Shown here: positions 259 through 35,919 of the stretch, piece by piece
Position numbering within the stretch: the first letter of the stretch is position 1
How the letters are laid out: each line of letters starts with the position of its first letter
Assembly (NCBI GenBank): GCA_937862575.1
Contig: CALMFM010000106.1
Location: 1-47,600 of the forward strand
From: an uncultured Bacillota bacterium
GTDB lineage: Bacteria > Bacillota_I > Bacilli_A > Izemoplasmatales > Hujiaoplasmataceae
Direction: 5' to 3'
Length of the DNA: 47,600 nucleotides
Position numbers and translations under genes: made by a program
The notes under the pieces: model-generated
What the model was told of the DNA's origin: nothing
Databases searched by the model: none
Seen by the model: only the letters and a program-made list of their open reading frames with translations

Positions 259-615
259 ATGTTTAAACCAGTCGATAAGAATAAACAAAGAATCAAAAGA
301 CATCGTCGGATCAGATTCAGCATCAAAGGTACGCCTGAAAGGCCACGCCTGAATGTTTTCCGTTCAAACAAGCATATCTATGCTCAATTGATCGACGATA
401 TCAACGGAGTTACCTTGGTACAAGCTAATTCCAGTGAGTTCGCTGAAATAAACGGATCCAACGCAGCCGGCGCACAAGTAGTCGGTGGCGCTATTGCTAA
501 AAGAGCAATCGAAAAGGGATTCAAAACAGTTGTATTCGACCGTGGCGGATATCTCTATCACGGAAGAGTAAAAGCATTGGCTGAAGCCGCAAGAGCCGAA
601 GGGCTAGAATTCTAG
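259..615 (+). CDS. rplR: 50S ribosomal protein L18
   Basis: 118 residues, the usual length for bacterial L18. The N-terminus is strongly basic ([13 protein letters not shown]), followed by the family motif [20 protein letters not shown] and a C-terminal [23 protein letters not shown]18 binds 5S rRNA and anchors it in the central protuberance with L5 and L25. The ATG follows an AGGTGATGA ribosome-binding stretch just after the rplF stop. It sits between rplF and rpsE in spc-operon order. Confidence 0.98.
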
Positions 616-632
616 AAGGAGGTTAACGGAAA

Positions 633-1244
633 ATGGAAGACAAAAGAATCGCTGTCGACGAAGAAAATGTCACTGAAGAGACCCAAGGTAATCCAAGGGA
701 CAGAAGAAACAACAGAGGCAGAAGAGACAGAGACAACAGAAGAAAAGACACCAGAAAAAAAGAAGTTAAACTCTATGAAGAGAAAGTTGTAAGCATCGGC
801 CGTGTTACCAAGGTTGTAAAAGGTGGTAGAAGATTCAGCTTCACAGCTTTGGTTGTTGTCGGAGATAGAAAAGGTAAAGTCGGATTCGGAACCGGTAAAG
901 CCGGAGAAGTTCCAGATGCTATCAAGAAAGCTATCGAAGATGCAAAGAAAAACATCATCGAAGTACCTGTAACAGGAACTACAATTCCTCATACAGTTAC
1001 CGGTAAATACGGTGCAGGAAAAGTATTCTTGCGTCCGGCAGCGGAAGGTACCGGAGTTATCGCCGGGGGACCTGTTCGTGCCGTACTTGAATTAGCCGGC
1101 ATCGAAGACGTCTTGAGTAAATCTCTTGGGTCAAGCACACCAATCAACATCGTTCGTGCGACTGTTGCTGGTTTGCAAGAACTGAGAAATGCTGAGGCTG
1201 TCGCCAAGATGAGAGGACTTACCGTTGAGGAGGTACTCAAATAA
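633..1244 (+). CDS. rpsE: 30S ribosomal protein S5, with long charged N-terminal extension
   Basis: 203 residues; typical bacterial S5 is about 165. The S5 core begins near residue 49 ([19 protein letters not shown]) with the RNA-binding domain, and the C-terminal domain carries [20 protein letters not shown]. The extra 35-40 residues at the N-terminus are almost wholly charged or polar: an acidic first 20 residues, then an Arg/Asp/Asn-rich run (about 21-43). S5 sits near the mRNA entry tunnel and affects decoding accuracy. A strong AGAAGGAGGTT site at about 613-623 precedes the ATG, so the long form looks genuine. The stop TAA overlaps the rpmD ATG by one base (TAATG), suggesting coupled translation. 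Confidence 0.97.
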
Positions 1245-28561: not shown

Positions 28562-29050
28562 ATGGCAAAAGAAGCTGAAAAGAAAGCAAAAAAGCCTACA
28601 AAAGTAAAAACAATTCAACCTAAAGATGAATCAAGAGTAATGGCGATCCTGAAAAAGGAATACGCTTTTGAAAACTGGTTATTGGCAATCCTGTCACCAG
28701 TCTTGATTCTTTACGGTGTATATATTGTCATCGGGAAATTCGGTACCGTTAATCTGGCATCGATTCTTGGTGGTTCCGGAATCGCATTCATCGATTTCTT
28801 CTTCAAAACAGCTTTGAGAAGAATATTGACAGGATCATTCCTAATCGTCATTGGCGCATTGGTTTTGGTCTATTTGATGATTCCATATTTCAGACCAAGC
28901 ATCGTTGAACTCAAGAAAGTAACTTTCCCGACATCAAAAGTATTAGCCATTAATTCAGTAAGAGTATTCATATTCCTGGTTTTCTTGGCTTTGTTCTTTG
29001 TTTTATTGGGATTCGCTTTCAATCCTTTGTTCAGACAGATTTACATTTAG
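28562..29050 (+). CDS. secE: Preprotein translocase subunit SecE, long three-segment form
   Basis: 162 residues; Firmicute SecE is usually about 60 with one membrane segment. The conserved SecE part is at the C-terminus: VELKKVTFPTSKV (115-127), the amphipathic helix, then the essential membrane segment (133-155). Upstream are a Lys-rich cytoplasmic N-terminus and two extra hydrophobic segments (about 37-58 and 90-110) joined by a 30-residue loop, as in the three-segment plan of E. coli SecE. It works with SecY. The position before nusG confirms identity. Confidence 0.93.
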   Translation: MAKEAEKKAKKPTKVKTIQPKDESRVMAILKKEYAFENWLLAILSPVLILYGVYIVIGKFGTVNLASILGGSGIAFIDFFFKTALRRILTGSFLIVIGALVLVYLMIPYFRPSIVELKKVTFPTSKVLAINSVRVFIFLVFLALFFVLLGFAFNPLFRQIYI

Positions 29051-29069: not shown

Positions 29070-29612
29070 ATGGATACCTCAAAGAGATTATGGTACATCG
29101 TCCAGACCTATTCAGGGTTTGAGAATTCCGTAAAACTCAATCTTGAAAGAAGAATCGAGAGTATGAATATGGAAAACTTGATTTTCCAAGTCATGATTCC
29201 CGAAGAAATGAAGACTGAGAAAAAGGCGGATGGATCCCTGAAAGAGAAAATGGTTAAGATTTTCCCTGGATATGTATTCATCGAAATGATTGTTACCGAC
29301 GATTCATGGTTCGTCGTCAGAAACACACCTGGCGTAACCGGATTCCTTGGATCTAGCGGTGGTGGTACAAAACCGATTCCTCTGAAACCAGATGAAATCA
29401 ACCCAATTCTTAAAAAGTGCGGTATGTTAGCTGTTCAGAGACTCAATGTCAAACCTGGTCAGAAAGTCAAAGTCGCCGCCGGAACATTGGCCGGACAAAT
29501 CGTCACTGTCGAAAGCTTGGACGAAGAGAAAGGCAAAGTACATGTTCTTATCGAAATGTTTGGTAGACAAACAGCGATGGAATTGGATTTTACCGAAGTA
29601 GAAGTAATTTAA
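29070..29612 (+). CDS. nusG: Transcription elongation/antitermination factor NusG
   Basis: 180 residues. NGN domain: WYIVQTYSGFENSVKLNLERRI and the conserved PGYVFIEM, followed by VRNTPGVTGFLG. KOW domain at about 125-180: LNVKPGQKVKVAAGTLAGQIVTVE. It modulates RNA polymerase pausing and couples transcription to translation. Normally followed by rplK; here a terminator and a 4.7 kb ABC transporter pair intervene. Confidence 0.97.
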   Translation: MDTSKRLWYIVQTYSGFENSVKLNLERRIESMNMENLIFQVMIPEEMKTEKKADGSLKEKMVKIFPGYVFIEMIVTDDSWFVVRNTPGVTGFLGSSGGGTKPIPLKPDEINPILKKCGMLAVQRLNVKPGQKVKVAAGTLAGQIVTVESLDEEKGKVHVLIEMFGRQTAMELDFTEVEVI

Positions 29613-29639
29613 GTCAGATTTGATATCTGACTTTTTTTA
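29611..29639 (+). terminator. Terminator after nusG
   Basis: AAGTCAGAT (29611-29619) pairs with ATCTGACTT (29625-29633) around TTGAT, followed by a T run. It overlaps the nusG stop codon. Confidence 0.85.
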
Positions 29640-29649
29640 TAGCTTTGTT

Positions 29650-29677
29650 TTGTTGCAAAAAATATCTATGATATAAT
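29650..29677 (+). promoter_or_regulatory. Candidate promoter for the ABC transporter pair
   Basis: Perfect TATAAT at 29672-29677; a weak TTGTTG at 29650-29655 is 16 bases upstream. The leader to ATG 29723 is about 40 bases. Confidence 0.5.
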
Positions 29678-29722
29678 AAATTGATAAATGTCGATATTTT
29701 GTAACTGAAAGGACTTCTTGAT

Positions 29723-31951
29723 ATGATCAAACTGGTAAATGTATCGAAATTCTATAGTTCAAACAATGTTATTGCTCTAGGTTTAAGGAAAGTAAATCTT
29801 GAATTGCATCGAAATGAGTTCGTAGCCATAGTCGGAGAATCAGGCTCTGGTAAAACGACGCTTTTGAATGTGATTTCAGGGATTGACTCCTATGAAGATG
29901 GAGAAATGTACATAAACGGAAAAGAGACATCATACTTTTCTGTATCCGATATGGAGAATTATCGTAAAAAGTATGTGGCATTCGTCTTTCAAAATTATAA
30001 TCTGATTGATTCTTATACCGTACTTCAAAACGTAGAAGCACCTTTGATTTTATCAGGGTATCCGAAACAAAAAATTAGAACAAGAGCCAAAGAAATTATT
30101 CGAAGAGTCGGGCTTGAAGATCATATGAATCACAAAGCCACAAAACTGTCTGGCGGTCAAAAGCAAAGAGTTGTCATTGCCAGAGCGTTGGCTAAAGACT
30201 GTCCAATCATCGCTGCAGATGAACCAACTGGAAATCTTGATTCCGAATCCGCAAAACAAATCGTTGAATTGCTATACGAGATTTCAAAAGAAAAACTTGT
30301 CGTTATGGTTACCCATGATTTCAATCAGGTAAAAGATTACGCCACCAGAAAGATTAGAATCTTCGATGGCGAAATAGTAGAGGATTTAAATCTTAAAAAA
30401 GTTAATAAGCTAGATTTGCCTGACATTCCTGATTCCGAGCATAGAATCAAATATCGAGATTACTTAGGAATATCACTAAGAAACCTTTTGTCTGTTCCTA
30501 AAAAGACCATCTTAATGATATTAATCTTCGCTTTCTTCAGTTTCTTTGTGGCTTTGGCTTATGGGGCTTATCAAATAGTGACTGACACGACAACATACAA
30601 TTACAATTATTATTTTAATAACACAAATCCGAATCGTGTAGTTTTGAGAAACATGGATAATTCGGCTTTTACCGAAGACCAACTAGCAGAACTTGAAAAT
30701 GACTATGACAACGTTAGATCGGTTGTCGCTTTCGATTATCTACTTGATGTTAGAGTAGGTTTTCAGACTGCCGGGCTAGATTTTGATTATGATCGTGATT
30801 ATTTCAGCGGATCATATTTGCCTTTGGATTTGATTGATGAGACGATGCTGAAATTTGGAGTGATGCCAACAGCTGATAACGAGGTAGTTGTATCTGTCCA
30901 CACAGCATTGATTGATTATTATGAAGATGCCTTACCGTTGACTGTATATTCCAATACGGGAGCTGATCAAACCAGCTACAAGATTGTTGGAATGGTCGAT
31001 ACTGCTGAATTGGCAGTCAGCCAAGAAGCGCTTGGTGAAAATTATTTCTTTGTAACAGATAATACTTTAGAAGAGTTACAGAAATTGTGGTATTTTACAT
31101 ATATTCTTAATTTAGAGATAATAGGAGATGATGAAACATTATTCTTCAATGGTTCAGCGGCAAGGATTTATATTGACGAAGACCTTGAAGATAACCAGAT
31201 TCTCACAACAGCAGCAACTGTAGCAAAACTCTGTGATGATGATGCATGTTTCTATGATGTATCTGTAAGCGTTGAGGATTACTACACTTCAAGAGTATTC
31301 AACGATATAGAATTAATAGTGACATCGGACTATATATGGGGTACTGCTTTTTATATGAACAGCAATACATTGAATGCCATGACATATGATGAGGTGTATC
31401 AAGTTTCTCTGTTGACAGACAAAGAAATCGGCGTTACCTCGCTTATTGGTACAATATCGAGAATACCTGGAACAGTATTCACAAGGCAATATAAAGTCGT
31501 ATATCCTTTCGATTCCGAACCGATCGATCAATTCCAAGGATTGATCCTATTGTTGATGAATATCGGAATGATTGCATTGAACTTTGCGGTTATGATTGGT
31601 TCGACTCTTATAACATATGTAATATTTAGAGCGATTATCAACACCAAACTACATGACTATGCAATATATCGTACAATTGGCGCCAATCAGGGAGCTATCA
31701 AACTATTCATCTACATCGAAAATATCTTTGTGGTGATAGTCGCATATATAATATTTTTAGCAATTAATCTGAGCCTTCCAGATACCATATCGCAATATGG
31801 AATCTTCTATGCCCTTAAGGTTTTCGGATTCAGTAATTATATTGTATTCTTCTTCATGCTCATCGTGATGTCGTTGATCATATCGAGAAAATATTCAAAT
31901 AGGATTTTCAGAAACACGGTGCAAACCACTCTGAAAACCAGTATGGAGTAG
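29723..31951 (+). CDS. ABC transporter, ATPase-permease fusion of MacB/FtsX type (1)
   Basis: 742 residues. The N-terminal ATPase has Walker A GESGSGKTT (38-46), signature LSGGQKQR (142-149), Walker B PIIAADE (161-167) and switch His in VMVTHDF. After a linker, TM1 is at about 263-285, a ~300-residue outside domain follows, and three C-terminal membrane segments lie at about 605-730. This is the MacB topology (type VII ABC) used for mechanical work on lipids, peptides or envelope substrates rather than import. The outside domain is rich in Tyr, Asp and Phe and not recognised. It is followed 6 bases later by a paralogue, so the two probably form a heterodimer. Substrate unknown. Confidence 0.88.
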   Translation: MIKLVNVSKFYSSNNVIALGLRKVNLELHRNEFVAIVGESGSGKTTLLNVISGIDSYEDGEMYINGKETSYFSVSDMENYRKKYVAFVFQNYNLIDSYTVLQNVEAPLILSGYPKQKIRTRAKEIIRRVGLEDHMNHKATKLSGGQKQRVVIARALAKDCPIIAADEPTGNLDSESAKQIVELLYEISKEKLVVMVTHDFNQVKDYATRKIRIFDGEIVEDLNLKKVNKLDLPDIPDSEHRIKYRDYLGISLRNLLSVPKKTILMILIFAFFSFFVALAYGAYQIVTDTTTYNYNYYFNNTNPNRVVLRNMDNSAFTEDQLAELENDYDNVRSVVAFDYLLDVRVGFQTAGLDFDYDRDYFSGSYLPLDLIDETMLKFGVMPTADNEVVVSVHTALIDYYEDALPLTVYSNTGADQTSYKIVGMVDTAELAVSQEALGENYFFVTDNTLEELQKLWYFTYILNLEIIGDDETLFFNGSAARIYIDEDLEDNQILTTAATVAKLCDDDACFYDVSVSVEDYYTSRVFNDIELIVTSDYIWGTAFYMNSNTLNAMTYDEVYQVSLLTDKEIGVTSLIGTISRIPGTVFTRQYKVVYPFDSEPIDQFQGLILLLMNIGMIALNFAVMIGSTLITYVIFRAIINTKLHDYAIYRTIGANQGAIKLFIYIENIFVVIVAYIIFLAINLSLPDTISQYGIFYALKVFGFSNYIVFFFMLIVMSLIISRKYSNRIFRNTVQTTLKTSME

Positions 31952-31957
31952 AATATC

Positions 31958-34450
31958 ATGATTAAACTATTAAACCTAAATAAGTATTTCAATAAGGGCA
32001 AAGCAAATCAAATACATGTTATAAACAATACAACATTAGAATTCCCTGAAAAGGGTCTAGTTGCGTTGACGGGTCCATCAGGCTGTGGTAAAACAACGCT
32101 TTTGAACGTAATTGGCGGACTAGATAAATTTGCATCTGGCGAGATTGCTTTCGATGAACACGTAATGTCCAAATACAGACCACTTGAATGGGATATTATT
32201 CGCAACAAGTATGTGGGATATATTTTCCAAAATTACAATCTCGTTGAAGACAAAACAGTATATGAAAACATCGAACTGGCTTTGAATATGGCCGGTCTTT
32301 ACGACAAGGATGAAATTGAAAAAAGAATCAATTATGTTCTGGAAAGCGTTGGAATGTACAATTATCGCAGACGTAATGTTCAAGCACTTTCCGGTGGTCA
32401 ACAACAACGCGTTGCCATCGCAAGAGCGATTGCCAAGAACCCGAAGGTTGTTTTAGCCGACGAACCAACAGGTAATCTCGATGCCAATAATACTTTTGAA
32501 GTCATGAGCATTATTAAAAAAATATCACAAGAATGTTTGGTGATTTTGGTTTCTCACGAAAGAAGCCTTGTTGATTTTTATGCTGACCGAGTAATTACGC
32601 TTTTAGACGGAGTAATCACTAGCGATATAGACAACTTGGGAAATAAATCTTTTGAACACAAAGATGAAAGAATCATTTATCTAAAGGACCTTCATAAAGA
32701 TGAGTCTCTATCCGGAAGCGGAATAGAGAGATACTATGAAGCTTCAAAAGACGATAGTCTGAGTTTTCAAATAGTTGAGGTCAAGGACTCGGTTTATATA
32801 AGAGCTAAGAGTCAAAAGAAGATTAAGTATCTGACCGACGACACGGAAATCAGATTGGTTAACGAACACTACAAGGCTAAACAATCCGAAGATGCATTGG
32901 AATATAGTTTTGACTTACACCAATTCGGAACCATCCAACAAACATCTACCAAGAGATCCTATATCAAGTTAGGCAGATCAATTCGCAATGGATTCATCAA
33001 GATGCTTAGCCCGAGGAAAGTTATTGGCAAGTTATTCCTTTTTGCCTACTTTGTAATATCTGCACTTATTGCTTATCAGATAGCGACCTTTGGTAATTTG
33101 ACTCGGAATAGTGAAGAGAATTATCTAAAAGTGTCACAGAATTTGGTTAGCGTACAAACAGATGACTTTTTCACTTCAACTGACATTGATTATATCTTGG
33201 ACAATGTTGATAATATTGAATGGTCACCGTATTATAATGCAGTCACGATAAACTATGATTTCGCAGATTTCTATCAAGGGGACATAAACGCGGGAGCTTA
33301 TGCATATCCAATAAAAGTGTCTCAAATCAGTGATGATGATTTAATGCTTGGTCGACTTCCGGAAAACACTTTGGAAATCGTTATCGACCGTTGGATTTTG
33401 GATCTATTGTTGGAAGGAAAGAAATTTACTGATTTAAATATCACTGACATAACTGGATTCATCGGACATACCGTGTATGCATCAAATGCATATTATTATG
33501 ATTATGGATATGGAGATTATTACAATGAACAACAAAACATTGGATTTGAAATAGTTGGTATCATCGATACCGGCGCTCCGACAATCGCGGTTAAGGATAG
33601 TGCTATTTTAGCATTTACGGAATTTGGTGGAGAATATCTTCCTTATGGAGCCCTTGAAGAAAGAATTGTTATTGAAGATGGCCGCGATGTGGAAAACGAC
33701 GATGAAATACTAATAGGTTCACAAATGGTCGGATTCGAATTAGACGATACATTTTCCTATGAAGGGAAAGATTATACGATAGTTGGCATATTCTCTGCAG
33801 ACGAGGATTACTTATCTACTAATGTTGAATACTATTTCACATTACCTGATGCAGACGTTGAACAGATAATCAAATATCAAGTGCAATATTACGTTTCGGC
33901 CTATAACTACTGGAGCGACAGTTCGGGATTATATTTTTATTCCGATGACTTGGATCAAGCGATAGAGGATATAATCGCTTTGGATCATGGCTATACAGCA
34001 TCAAATGCATACGAAAGTCAAAAAGAGACTTATTTAACCGCTTTATATCAAGAAAATGCAGCGCAACTTAGAACTGTCATTATTGTTCTGGCTGGTATTA
34101 TCGTATATATCTATTTCATGATGCGGTCGAGTATGTTAAGTAGAATTAGAGAAATTGGAATTTACCGCTCGATTGGCGCTACAAAGAGAGATATCTACAA
34201 GATCTTCGTTGGAGAAATAATAGCCACAACAACAATAGGAGCTCTAACCGGTTATCTGGCAATGTCGTTCTTGATTTATAGAGTCCAAGTGATGACTGAA
34301 GGGACGTTGTCTTTCTTCTACCTGCCATTTACATATTTTATCGGAGGTATCATTTTCATCTATGTTCTAAACCTGATGTTTGGAATGCTCCCAGTGTTCA
34401 ATTTGTTGCGTAAAACGCCATCAGAAATCAACGTTAAATACGACATATAA
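31958..34450 (+). CDS. ABC transporter, ATPase-permease fusion of MacB/FtsX type (2)
   Basis: 830 residues with the same plan as its neighbour: Walker A GPSGCGKTT (39-47), signature LSGGQQQR (144-151), Walker B VVLADE (164-169), switch His in LVSHERS. A region of about 120 residues (about 215-345) separates the ATPase from TM1 (about 361-380), longer than in partner 1. The outside domain (about 385-700) has Tyr/Asp-rich stretches (NAYYYDYGYGDYYNEQ). Three C-terminal segments follow, with REIGIYRSIGATKRDIYKIF, the FtsX/MacB permease signature. Both ATPases look active. It probably acts with the 29723 gene; antibiotic-peptide resistance or lipoprotein handling are only guesses. Confidence 0.88.
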   Translation: MIKLLNLNKYFNKGKANQIHVINNTTLEFPEKGLVALTGPSGCGKTTLLNVIGGLDKFASGEIAFDEHVMSKYRPLEWDIIRNKYVGYIFQNYNLVEDKTVYENIELALNMAGLYDKDEIEKRINYVLESVGMYNYRRRNVQALSGGQQQRVAIARAIAKNPKVVLADEPTGNLDANNTFEVMSIIKKISQECLVILVSHERSLVDFYADRVITLLDGVITSDIDNLGNKSFEHKDERIIYLKDLHKDESLSGSGIERYYEASKDDSLSFQIVEVKDSVYIRAKSQKKIKYLTDDTEIRLVNEHYKAKQSEDALEYSFDLHQFGTIQQTSTKRSYIKLGRSIRNGFIKMLSPRKVIGKLFLFAYFVISALIAYQIATFGNLTRNSEENYLKVSQNLVSVQTDDFFTSTDIDYILDNVDNIEWSPYYNAVTINYDFADFYQGDINAGAYAYPIKVSQISDDDLMLGRLPENTLEIVIDRWILDLLLEGKKFTDLNITDITGFIGHTVYASNAYYYDYGYGDYYNEQQNIGFEIVGIIDTGAPTIAVKDSAILAFTEFGGEYLPYGALEERIVIEDGRDVENDDEILIGSQMVGFELDDTFSYEGKDYTIVGIFSADEDYLSTNVEYYFTLPDADVEQIIKYQVQYYVSAYNYWSDSSGLYFYSDDLDQAIEDIIALDHGYTASNAYESQKETYLTALYQENAAQLRTVIIVLAGIIVYIYFMMRSSMLSRIREIGIYRSIGATKRDIYKIFVGEIIATTTIGALTGYLAMSFLIYRVQVMTEGTLSFFYLPFTYFIGGIIFIYVLNLMFGMLPVFNLLRKTPSEINVKYDI

Positions 34451-34478
34451 AATAATGCGAGGTTTCAATAAAAAAATC

Positions 34479-34507
34479 TTGACAACGTTAGGTATATATT
34501 ATATAAT
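34479..34507 (+). promoter_or_regulatory. Consensus sigma-A promoter for rplK-rplA
   Basis: Perfect TTGACA (34479-34484), 17-base spacer, perfect TATAAT (34502-34507). One of the two strongest promoters by sequence in the window, as expected for ribosomal genes. Confidence 0.92.
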
Positions 34508-34531: not shown

Positions 34532-34563
34532 GTGTGGGAGGGTAAAAACCCAATGAACCACAT
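34532..34563 (+). promoter_or_regulatory. Predicted L1-binding leader element upstream of rplK
   Basis: The leader folds as outer helix TGTGG (34533-34537) with CCACA (34558-34562), an asymmetric internal loop GA opposite AATGAA, and inner helix GGG (34540-34542) with CCC (34549-34551) closing a TAAAAA loop. The GGGA opposite an ATGAA-type bulge matches the known L1 recognition motif of 23S rRNA and of L11-L1 mRNA leaders. CACATCACG and the RBS follow. Expected role: L1 represses its own operon. Confidence 0.75.
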
Positions 34564-34587
34564 CACGAAAATAAGGAGGTGTCTTTC

Positions 34588-35013
34588 GTGGCTAAAGAAA
34601 TTAAGACGGTTGTTAAACTCCAAGTGCCTGGTGGAAAAGCAACACCTGCACCACCGATTGGTCCGATTCTCGGACAAGCCGGAGTTAACATTCAACAATT
34701 TTGTGTACAATTCAACGATATGACGAGAGATCAAGTTGGCAGCGTTATCCCTGTAGTGCTGACTGTGTATGATGACAGATCATTCACATTCATCACCAAA
34801 ACTCCGCCAGCAAGCGATCTTTTAAAGAAAGCATGCAAGATTCAAAAAGGCTCGGGTAAAGCCGGCAAGGAACCTGTTGCGACAATCACAAGAGAACAAT
34901 TGCGTGAAATCGCTACAATCAAAATGCCTGACCTGAACGCTAATGACGTCGAAGCAGCTTCACGTATCATCGAAGGTACAGCAAGAAACATGGGAATTGT
35001 CGTAAAAGACTAA
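34588..35013 (+). CDS. rplK: 50S ribosomal protein L11
   Basis: 141 residues from GTG 34588; AAGGAGGTG at 34573-34581 sets this start, and the in-frame GTG at 34579 overlaps the [22 protein letters not shown] and [14 protein letters not shown] form the N-terminal domain hinge, and the C-terminal rRNA-binding domain has [14 protein letters not shown] and [13 protein letters not shown]11 forms the GTPase-associated stalk base that thiopeptides target. Leader carries the L1 motif. Confidence 0.97.
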
Positions 35014-35018
35014 GTGTA

Positions 35019-35047
35019 TTGGTTGTTAATATATACAACTATATAAT
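35019..35047 (+). promoter_or_regulatory. Possible internal promoter between rplK and rplA
   Basis: TTGGTT (35019-35024), 17-base spacer, TATAAT (35042-35047). The spacer contains a GTTGT...ACAAC inverted repeat. Could give extra rplA transcription, but an rplK-rplA gap promoter is not a standard feature. Confidence 0.35.
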
Positions 35048-35089
35048 GGGAGGACATTCCGCTAAAACCAAATATAGGAGGAAAACAAA

Positions 35090-35770
35090 ATGGCAAAAAA
35101 AGGAAAAAAGTATACTGAAGCCTTATCAAAATTCGATAAGCAAAAGAAATATCCTTTGGCAGAAGCAGTTGAGTTGGTAAAATCATTATCATTCGAAAAA
35201 TTCGACGCATCTGTAGAATTGGCCTTCAACCTGAACTTAGATCCTCGTAAGGCAGAACAAAATCTTAGAGGAGCATTGGTGTTACCTCACGGAACCGGAA
35301 AAACCAAAAGAGTATTGGTTTTTGCGAGAGGTGAGAAAGCCAAGGAAGCTCAAGATGCCGGAGCGGACTATGTAGGTGACGACGACCTGATTGAACAAAT
35401 CAAGGGCGGTTGGTTCGAATTCGACGTTGTAATCGCTACGCCGGACATGATGGCTACATTAGGTAAGATTGGCCGTCTGTTGGGACCTAAAGGCTTGATG
35501 CCTAACCCTAAGACCGGAACTGTTACAATGGATATCGAAAAAACAGTTACAGAATCAAAAGGCGGTAAAATCACTTACCGTGTCGACAAATTTGGAAATA
35601 TCCAGGTTGTCGTTGGAAAAGTTTCTTTTGAAACTCAGAATTTAGTAGACAATATAACGTCCGTTTCTGATTTGGTAAAAAGAATCAAACCGTCGACAGT
35701 CAAGGGTGTTTATATTAAAAACGTTGCCATCTCATCATCGATGGGACCTGGCGTAAAAGTCGAACTCTAA
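35090..35770 (+). CDS. rplA: 50S ribosomal protein L1
   Basis: 226 residues. Family features: [70 protein letters not shown] (the highly conserved L1 signature) and a C-terminal [10 protein letters not shown]1 binds the mobile stalk of 23S rRNA and, as a repressor, the L11-L1 mRNA. AGGAGG precedes the ATG. The L10 leader follows directly. Confidence 0.98.
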
Positions 35771-35771
35771 A

Positions 35772-35861
35772 AAAATAAATAACTTTATCTAAGACAGTAG
35801 GGGCGCTGCTTAATCATCCTACCGAGACAAAGAGTAAACCAATAAATAAAGTTTATTTATT
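35772..35861 (+). promoter_or_regulatory. L10 leader RNA (autoregulation of rplJ-rplL)
   Basis: The stretch AAGACAGTAGGGGCGCTGC (35791-35809), then TTAATCATCCTACCGAGAC, is the conserved core of the L10 leader, which L10(L12)4 binds: GTAGG pairs with CCTAC, with the conserved AATCATCC side. A closing helix can form between AATAAATAACTTTA near 35774-35787 and TAAAGTTTATTTATT near 35846-35861. A hairpin with T tail follows, so control is by attenuation. Confidence 0.85.
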
Positions 35862-35890
35862 CCTCTTTTCTCCAGCAGAAGAGAGGTTTT
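35862..35890 (+). terminator. Attenuator hairpin upstream of rplJ
   Basis: CCTCTTTTCT (35862-35871) pairs with AGAAGAGAGG (35877-35886; one G-T pair) around CCAGC, followed by TTTT. Placed between the L10 leader and rplJ, it is the expected conditional terminator. Confidence 0.8.
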
Positions 35891-35919
35891 CTATTTAAAA
35901 GACATAAGGAGGTCTTTCA

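Follow-up and report, generated by a model that had tools for sequence, protein, structure and literature searches.

Members of the MacB family of ATP-binding cassette (ABC) transporters are built in several ways. In the available sections of a review of the family, fused homodimers (MacB), heterodimers with a separate nucleotide-binding domain (NBD; LolCDE) and fused double permeases (BceB, YbbP) are described, the NBDs being either fused or separate, and two unequal NBD-fused halves are not among the examples given there (PMC5985334). Here we report on a tandem pair of ABC genes, A and B, located between nusG and rplK in an uncultured Bacillota bacterium of the Izemoplasmatales (family Hujiaoplasmataceae). 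The stretch analysed, referred to as the window, comprises 47,600 nucleotides (assembly GCA_937862575.1, contig CALMFM010000106.1, positions 1 to 47,600, forward strand); its genome, G000, has 1.89 Mb in 236 contigs and is 87.6% complete. The order in the window is secE, nusG, a hairpin followed by T's, an extended -10 promoter, A, six bases, B, a sigma-70 promoter, a leader and rplK-rplA (Table 1). A first-pass annotation of the same DNA had read nusG, a terminator, a promoter, two fused ABC genes of 742 and 830 residues and rplK behind a consensus promoter of its own; Pfam matches and scans confirmed this order, and the rplK promoter matched the consensus in 12 of 12 positions. Taken together we think it likely that a single ancient relocation placed a heteromeric type VII machine at this junction.

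Junctions were read after 61 genomes had been searched with NusG, RplK, A and B and 90 genomes of the order with RplK, i.e. 34 of the window's family (f1) and seven and 49 of two further families (f2 and f3). The order nusG-A-B-rplK was complete on one contig in 22 of the 34 f1 genomes, with only the start of rplK in G003 and an extra gene before A in G028. Ten more agreed up to the contig end (G001, G008, G009, G010, G014, G016, G018, G019, G023 and G029), G032 had the order with both ABC genes frameshifted, and the assembly of G033 held neither nusG, rplK nor the pair. As far as the contigs reach the pair is at the junction in 33 of 34 f1 genomes and in all 11 f1 genera. The 49 f3 genomes gave 46 loci, leaving out G071 and G084 (no rplK match) and G073 (partial). 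All 45 readable f3 junctions were unoccupied with a gap of 118-183 bp; the remaining locus, G088, begins after nusG. Because of these unoccupied junctions we consider the occupied junction to be derived within the order. In f2 six of seven junctions were readable (G044 had no match). None contained A-B, and gaps of 0.9-2.5 kb between nusG and rplK held other genes. A HAD-like gene preceded rplK in all six (in G036 with Pfam HAD_2 at 4.6e-30, in the other five by eye). Three genomes had additional junction genes: a FakA-like one in G034, an ion-channel-like one in G042 and one in G046 whose product resembles that of G042 at its start, as judged without a Pfam scan. The premise of the first-pass annotation that nusG and rplK are neighbours holds in f3 and fails in other families of the class: among 27 sampled loci nusG was within about 330 bp of rplK in only 11 and farther away in 5, and in 11 no nusG was found within 1.5 kb of rplK. 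Five further rplK-bearing genomes gave no readable locus.

The A-B tandem was also read in eight other families (f2, f3, f7, f10, f12, f13, f16 and f18), away from nusG and rplK. A directly preceded B in all 58 loci checked (59 pairs), of which 38 were from the order, two paralogous ones included, and 20 came from f7, f10, f12, f13, f16 and f18 together with three f1 paralogues; the sample was collected through matches to A or B, and lone copies elsewhere fall outside it. Since the tandem, found elsewhere in eight other families, is older than the f1 junction, we favor a relocation of a resident pair. Trees of A and B were built by a quick method supported by the Shimodaira-Hasegawa-like approximate likelihood ratio test (SH-aLRT) only. 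From f1 they contained 16 proteins each of A and B, and each set formed one clade (support 99 for A and 100 for B). In the rplK+rplA tree f1 joined f2 (99/95) with f3 outside, and in the B tree f2 was the sister of f1 (98). A move of a resident A-B pair on the f1 stem, in all likelihood a single event, followed by inheritance at the new site, is thus well supported.

The former site of the pair was sought through its neighbours elsewhere. In the f2 loci read the pair neighbours an M24 peptidase with a SEC-C motif, which gave no donor site when 11 genomes of f1 and f3 were searched; all M24 peptidase matches there missed at least the first 39 residues, including the SEC-C part. In f3 the neighbours among the listed loci were an HD-domain gene (at least 11 of 24), an OLD-like ATPase (at least 10 of 24) and an HtpG-like gene (at least 5 of 24), with domains scanned by Pfam in G035 only and HtpG assigned by eye. 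A scan of the contigs of named relatives returned four matches, to the NBD only, and a plasmid search returned nothing that matched B from residue 228 onward. The window's genome has a paralogous A-B pair on contig 66 (L065:8603-13350) that belongs to a separate clade also holding f3 pairs. In G194 two tandem A-B pairs lie between frr-like and uppS-like genes, assigned by eye, again among core genes (L178:2393-11725).

The transcription signals of the junction were examined by a scan. Promoter-like sites were no commoner than in shuffled sequence (31 versus 32.5), while terminator-like sites were (14 versus 5.9). Because the scan alone cannot tell promoters from chance, our promoter calls rest on conservation; chance promoters were rejected by conservation across families, not by the scan. 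The rplK promoter, with at least 10 of 12 matching positions, was present in 30/30 f1, 6/6 f2 and 45/45 f3 leaders examined, a count that omits leaders with an unaligned rplK start such as that of G049. Because it occurs in all 45 insert-free f3 leaders it predates the pair. A hairpin followed by T's opened the rplK leader in 37/45 f3 leaders, but in 0/30 of f1 and 0/6 of f2. The box pattern was missing from six leaders, five of f1 and one of f3; the T-run measurements leave these out, and the hairpin test includes them. Directly after nusG a terminator-like hairpin was found by a script rule in 21 of 28 f1 spacers and by eye in 6 of 6 f2 spacers, with short T-runs in G036 and G038; before the rplK promoter it was found in 9 of 45 f3 loci. 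Thus the rplK promoter is ancestral and older than the insertion, and the terminator changed place. The first-pass annotation had supposed an insertion tolerated by added signals. The junction is indeed derived, and a promoter before A together with a terminator after nusG supports the pair's being a separate transcription unit; the rplK promoter was not added.

The conserved box in the rplK leader has, by its sequence, the form of an L1 binding site. According to the available sections of a review, uL1 represses rplK-rplA through such sites, and in some cases, e.g. in Firmicutes, sites precede both rplK and rplA (PMC10931766). A second L1-like box (TGGGAGG...ACCA), recognised by eye before rplA at 35047-35070 of the window, agrees with that description. 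The leader differs from a plain uL1-regulated one in f3, where the terminator-like hairpin opens it. Rfam had no match in the rplK leader of the window at gathering score (best weak match E 2.9). In f3 leaders such as L035 the 5' strand of the hairpin, GCGTG, could pair with CACG after the L1-type box and form a putative switch; in GCATG-type f3 leaders this pairing would be imperfect.

In our reading the A-B pair, already resident in the class, moved on the f1 stem to a site after nusG and ahead of the rplK promoter, when this promoter and the L1-type leader were in place. The pair brought or gained its extended -10 promoter, and transcription from nusG now stops directly after nusG and not inside the rplK leader. 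The position of the pair beside rplK looks incidental, and nothing suggests an action on transcription or ribosomes.

Several results weigh against this history. Because f1 and f2 are sisters the terminator shift counts as one event on their common stem, not as 36. Outside the order the pattern of leader terminators was mixed (33 loci): terminator-like leaders occurred in 3 of 11 loci with adjacent nusG and in 3 of 22 others (L120, L134 and L148), the former three all being from f10 and none from f14, f8, f13, f15 or f20. That unoccupied junctions generally go with a terminator in the leader was therefore not upheld there. The f1-f2 sister relation lacks resolution in the A tree, and f3 had a support of only 64/44 as a single group in the rplK+rplA tree. 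In both pair trees, unlike the rplK+rplA tree, f1 and f2 pairs grouped with those of f7, f13 and f18 (97), apart from f3; these discordant trees may reflect an old duplication or a transfer deeper down. G010 and G023 did not show nusG adjacent to A and have further genes ahead of A. Those of G010, whose nusG is on a different contig, encode an IS91-type transposase (Y2_Tnp 1.6e-29) and a 260-residue protein without a Pfam match (L188:6511-7839). In G023, as in G028 of the same genus, a TPR+GGDEF (diguanylate cyclase) gene immediately precedes A. Finally, the frameshifts of G032 (L025:2509-7164) affect both ABC genes and leave nusG and rplK open, which suggests decay or an assembly error limited to these two genes; if decay is real, the pair is dispensable in this genome.

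Two other histories were considered. A mobile two-gene cassette that entered this strain or genus recently would account for a junction occupied in the window and unoccupied in f3, and for a pair with its own promoter and upstream terminator. Yet its family-wide occurrence in f1 led us to reject a recent insertion, which we hold to be highly improbable; the first-pass annotation, in suggesting a comparison of relatives, had itself named occurrence throughout a wide clade as speaking against recency. The trees of both ABC proteins, another of its suggestions, argue against a recent arrival by their single f1 clades, and identity within f1 falls to 42% for A and 43% for B. Repeats at the edges of the junction, which it had also proposed to look for, were sought and no notable one was found. 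Among the best 20 of 26 direct repeat families the only one joining the edges was D6 with 17 nt, which corresponds to the TATAATAA stretches of the two promoters, and the window junction contains no long open reading frame (ORF) except A and B. The pair could also have been transferred laterally into f1, or f1 and f2, from another order and have replaced an f3-like resident pair, as the grouping with f7, f13 and f18 would suggest. However, the branches concerned are deep, and an ancient duplication with different losses gives the same trees; genomes of f1 and f3 also contain a third pair, paralogous to the others, and the f2 pair, sister to that of f1 in the B tree, sits elsewhere. We regard this transfer as unlikely and retain the relocation of a resident pair.

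The architecture of A and B was deduced from hydropathy alone, as the mean over 14 f1 proteins of each kind. Both show four transmembrane (TM) helices with one large outside domain of about 320 residues between TM1 and TM2. The FtsX module (PF02687) was found in 25/25 A and 25/25 B proteins at E 1, and the window's A and B scored 25.7 and 56.2 bits with a cut-off of 25.5 bits. Both thus carry the C-terminal FtsX module and the four-TM layout of the type VII superfamily. The first-pass annotation had called the two outside domains unlike each other and unassigned. This is too simple: in a profile-profile comparison the membrane halves including the outside domains aligned over 410 columns (probability 99.7, E 5.9e-27, 17% identity), and both match type VII permeases. 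On this evidence the membrane halves of A and B are distantly homologous. The profile of the A half, without the NBD, matched YtrF (5.6e-13), LolF (2.1e-06) and LolE (0.0013). The B half matched YtrF (5.2e-10), a pneumococcal MacB-like permease (1.1e-09), LolF (2.2e-04) and MacB chains (2.2e-06, 5.9e-06 and 3.4e-04). Matches to solved type VII permeases were mostly within the FtsX part. NBD profiles from 25 A and 25 B proteins matched MJ0796, MacB, BceA and LolD. All four NBD motifs were present in 16/16 A and 16/16 B proteins of f1; the motif patterns were used for f1 only, being too strict outside it (32/60 A and 21/59 B scored as missing at least one). Over 14 f1 members mean identity was 75-80% in the NBDs and 27-29% in the outside domains, i.e. 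the engine is fixed and the outside part varies fast. The ratio of nonsynonymous to synonymous substitution rates (dN/dS) was computable in three of six comparisons with values for A/B of 0.12/0.12, 0.12/0.09 and 0.06/0.05, the last with a dS of about 2; the other three were saturated. Purifying selection has kept both genes. AlphaFold models from single sequences were too poor for use, with a mean predicted local distance difference test score (pLDDT) of 34.2 for A and 34.7 for B.

A and B resemble MacB (PDB 5LIL, 5GKO and 5NIK) in the order of NBD, TM1, large outside domain and TM2-4, to which the matches of the B half add. MacB, however, is a homodimer that works with the adaptor MacA, whereas A and B are two unequal fused halves, and B has a segment of 120 residues between NBD and TM1. 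For the adaptor we searched with HlyD_D23 (PF16576) as the only model and obtained no match in the 87.6% complete G000 and a match in one of 12 genomes searched (G027); the hallmark of the MacAB efflux pump, an adaptor of the MacA/HlyD type, was thus not seen in G000. YtrF, LolF and LolE (PDB 9O9X, 9W2W and 7ARH) gave the best sequence matches of the A half, and YtrF and LolF matched B as well, but their NBDs are separate proteins and A-B hosts are expected to lack an outer membrane. A and B may be likened to the LolC+LolE heterodimer of the MacB family review (PMC5985334); LolCDE, however, has LolD as a separate NBD, while both NBDs are fused here. YbbAP-TesA is a type VII machine proposed, in the available text, to extract hydrophobic molecules from the membrane (PMC12646458), yet YbbP resembles two fused permease units and has a separate NBD (PMC5985334), and in the window no ORF that might encode a partner lies between the pair and nusG or rplK. 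BceAB has a 10-TM permease, a separate NBD and a linked two-component system; A and B instead have four TM helices and fused NBDs, and by eye no two-component pair was recognised among the neighbouring ORFs of the window. In FtsEX, FtsE and FtsX are two proteins that act on wall hydrolases, whereas A and B have fused NBDs and outside domains of about 320 residues. An FtsEX-like role is further disfavored by the probable absence of wall synthesis. Each of 12 genomes had one Mur_ligase_M match in reading frames of 419-523 aa, which would fit a FolC-like enzyme and an absent wall, and members of 'Candidatus Izemoplasma' are wall-less according to the available text (PMC8397711).

We conclude that A and B probably form one asymmetric, heteromeric type VII (MacB/Lol/YbbAP-like) ABC machine. 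ATP binding would draw the two NBDs together, and the four-helix halves would relay their movement to both outside domains by mechanotransmission. At the outer surface of the single membrane these domains would then pull or push a substrate that is hydrophobic or linked to a lipid. Because no HlyD_D23 adaptor was found and the wall is probably absent, a machine moving such putative substrates on the outside of this membrane is the likeliest reading. It is not without counterevidence. The tandem order and the parallel trees would equally fit two co-expressed homodimers, and A and B shared their nearest neighbour in only 34 of 58 pairs. MacB_PCD, the outside domain of MacB, was detected in 5 of 25 B proteins at E 0.1 (best 1.4e-06) and was absent for A among the best 25 Pfam families listed, yet the window's own B reached only E 0.093 with 13.4 bits, below the 27-bit cut-off.

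If A and B were two separate homodimeric exporters sharing a promoter, each would need a complete NBD and a four-TM half as in MacB, which both have, and the differing nearest neighbours in 24 of 58 pairs would be expected. On the other hand, A stands directly before B in every locus, and paralogous pairs split alike in both trees. A and B distances correlate with 0.88 over 58 pairs, although shared descent alone gives such a value. On balance two homodimers seem improbable to us. We judge similarly doubtful the possibility that the pair is a drug or peptide resistance exporter of the Bce or Mac type. Its NBDs are close to those of MacB, BceA and LolD, as in many exporters, but the rarity of HlyD_D23, the lack of a two-component pair recognisable by eye nearby, the retention of the pair across the family and the probable absence of peptidoglycan targets, given one Mur_ligase_M match in each of 12 genomes, all speak against it.

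The feature that sets B apart from A is the stretch between NBD and TM1, which comprised 121-132 residues in 25/25 B proteins versus 28-31 in 25/25 A proteins. By topology it is predicted to lie in the cytoplasm. It has one invariant L, nearly invariant I, Y and D, and two more nearly invariant Y. A sequence search at E 10 found no PDB chain, and no Pfam family occurred in more than one of 25 members. The segment would couple or regulate one NBD.

Table 1. Coordinates of the features at the nusG-rplK junction (window positions unless a locus or residues are given)
Feature	Position	Strand	Evidence
nusG, upstream edge of the junction	29070..29612	+	Pfam NusG 2.9e-28, KOW 4.2e-05
Terminator-like hairpin directly 3' of nusG	29611..29633	+	scan; terminator-like in 21/28 f1 nusG-A spacers
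Extended -10 promoter TGATATAAT of the pair	29669..29677	+	sequence; TGnTATAAT in 27/28 f1 spacers
Gene A, ABC-FtsX, 742 aa	29723..31951	+	ABC_tran 6.8e-33, FtsX 1.3e-05
Parts of A	residues: NBD 1-225; TM1 263-281; outside domain ~285-605; TM2-4 606-730		hydropathy
Gene B, ABC-FtsX, 830 aa	31958..34450	+	ABC_tran 2.9e-33, FtsX 4.3e-15
Parts of B	residues: NBD 1-225; B-only cytoplasmic segment 228-347; TM1 355-373; outside domain ~380-700; TM2-4 701-815		hydropathy
B-only segment between NBD and TM1, absent from A	32639..32998	+	predicted cytoplasmic by topology
rplK promoter TTGACA-17-TATAAT (12/12)	34479..34507	+	scan; match of at least 10/12 kept in f1, f2 and f3
Box conserved in the rplK leader, GTGGGAG...CC...ACCACATCACG, resembling an L1 site	34534..34567	+	sequence, conservation
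rplK, downstream edge of the junction	34579..35013	+	Ribosomal_L11 5e-29
TPR+GGDEF gene, G028, between nusG and A	L026:3010-4674		
TPR+GGDEF gene, G023	L027:837-2495		

Two neighbouring features of the window were noted besides. SecE (28562-29050), a protein of 162 aa, shows three hydrophobic stretches on visual inspection, and the Pfam SecE domain covers residues 109-156 only. An L10 leader (RF00557, 77.9 bits) was found at 35770-35901, ahead of the following ribosomal protein gene, which its position and inspection by eye identify as rplJ.

In the literature on secE, nusG, rplK and gene order that we surveyed, as far as titles tell, none concerns this occupied junction. The pair is an ordinary transporter type in an unusual but stable place. 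It is widespread, conserved and apparently undescribed in the literature surveyed, and it occurs in lineages that probably lack a wall. The B-only segment, conserved yet unrecognised by Pfam and PDB sequences, together with the rebuilt transcription boundary is what remains of particular interest. As a tentative extension, possible but in our estimate rather doubtful, A-B would represent a class-wide kind of asymmetric type VII machine, so far undescribed, in wall-less bacteria, a heterodimer with a state-sensing gating domain in B, and the boundary between nusG and rplK would have become a tolerant slot once the terminator had left the rplK leader, to be filled differently by each family. The slot would then hold the transporter pair in f1, a HAD phosphatase in f2 and further genes in single f1 members. 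What appeared to be an insertion is a stable trait of f1 with a place on the tree, and the order of events can be given: the rplK promoter came first, the terminator moved, and the slot was filled differently in sister families.

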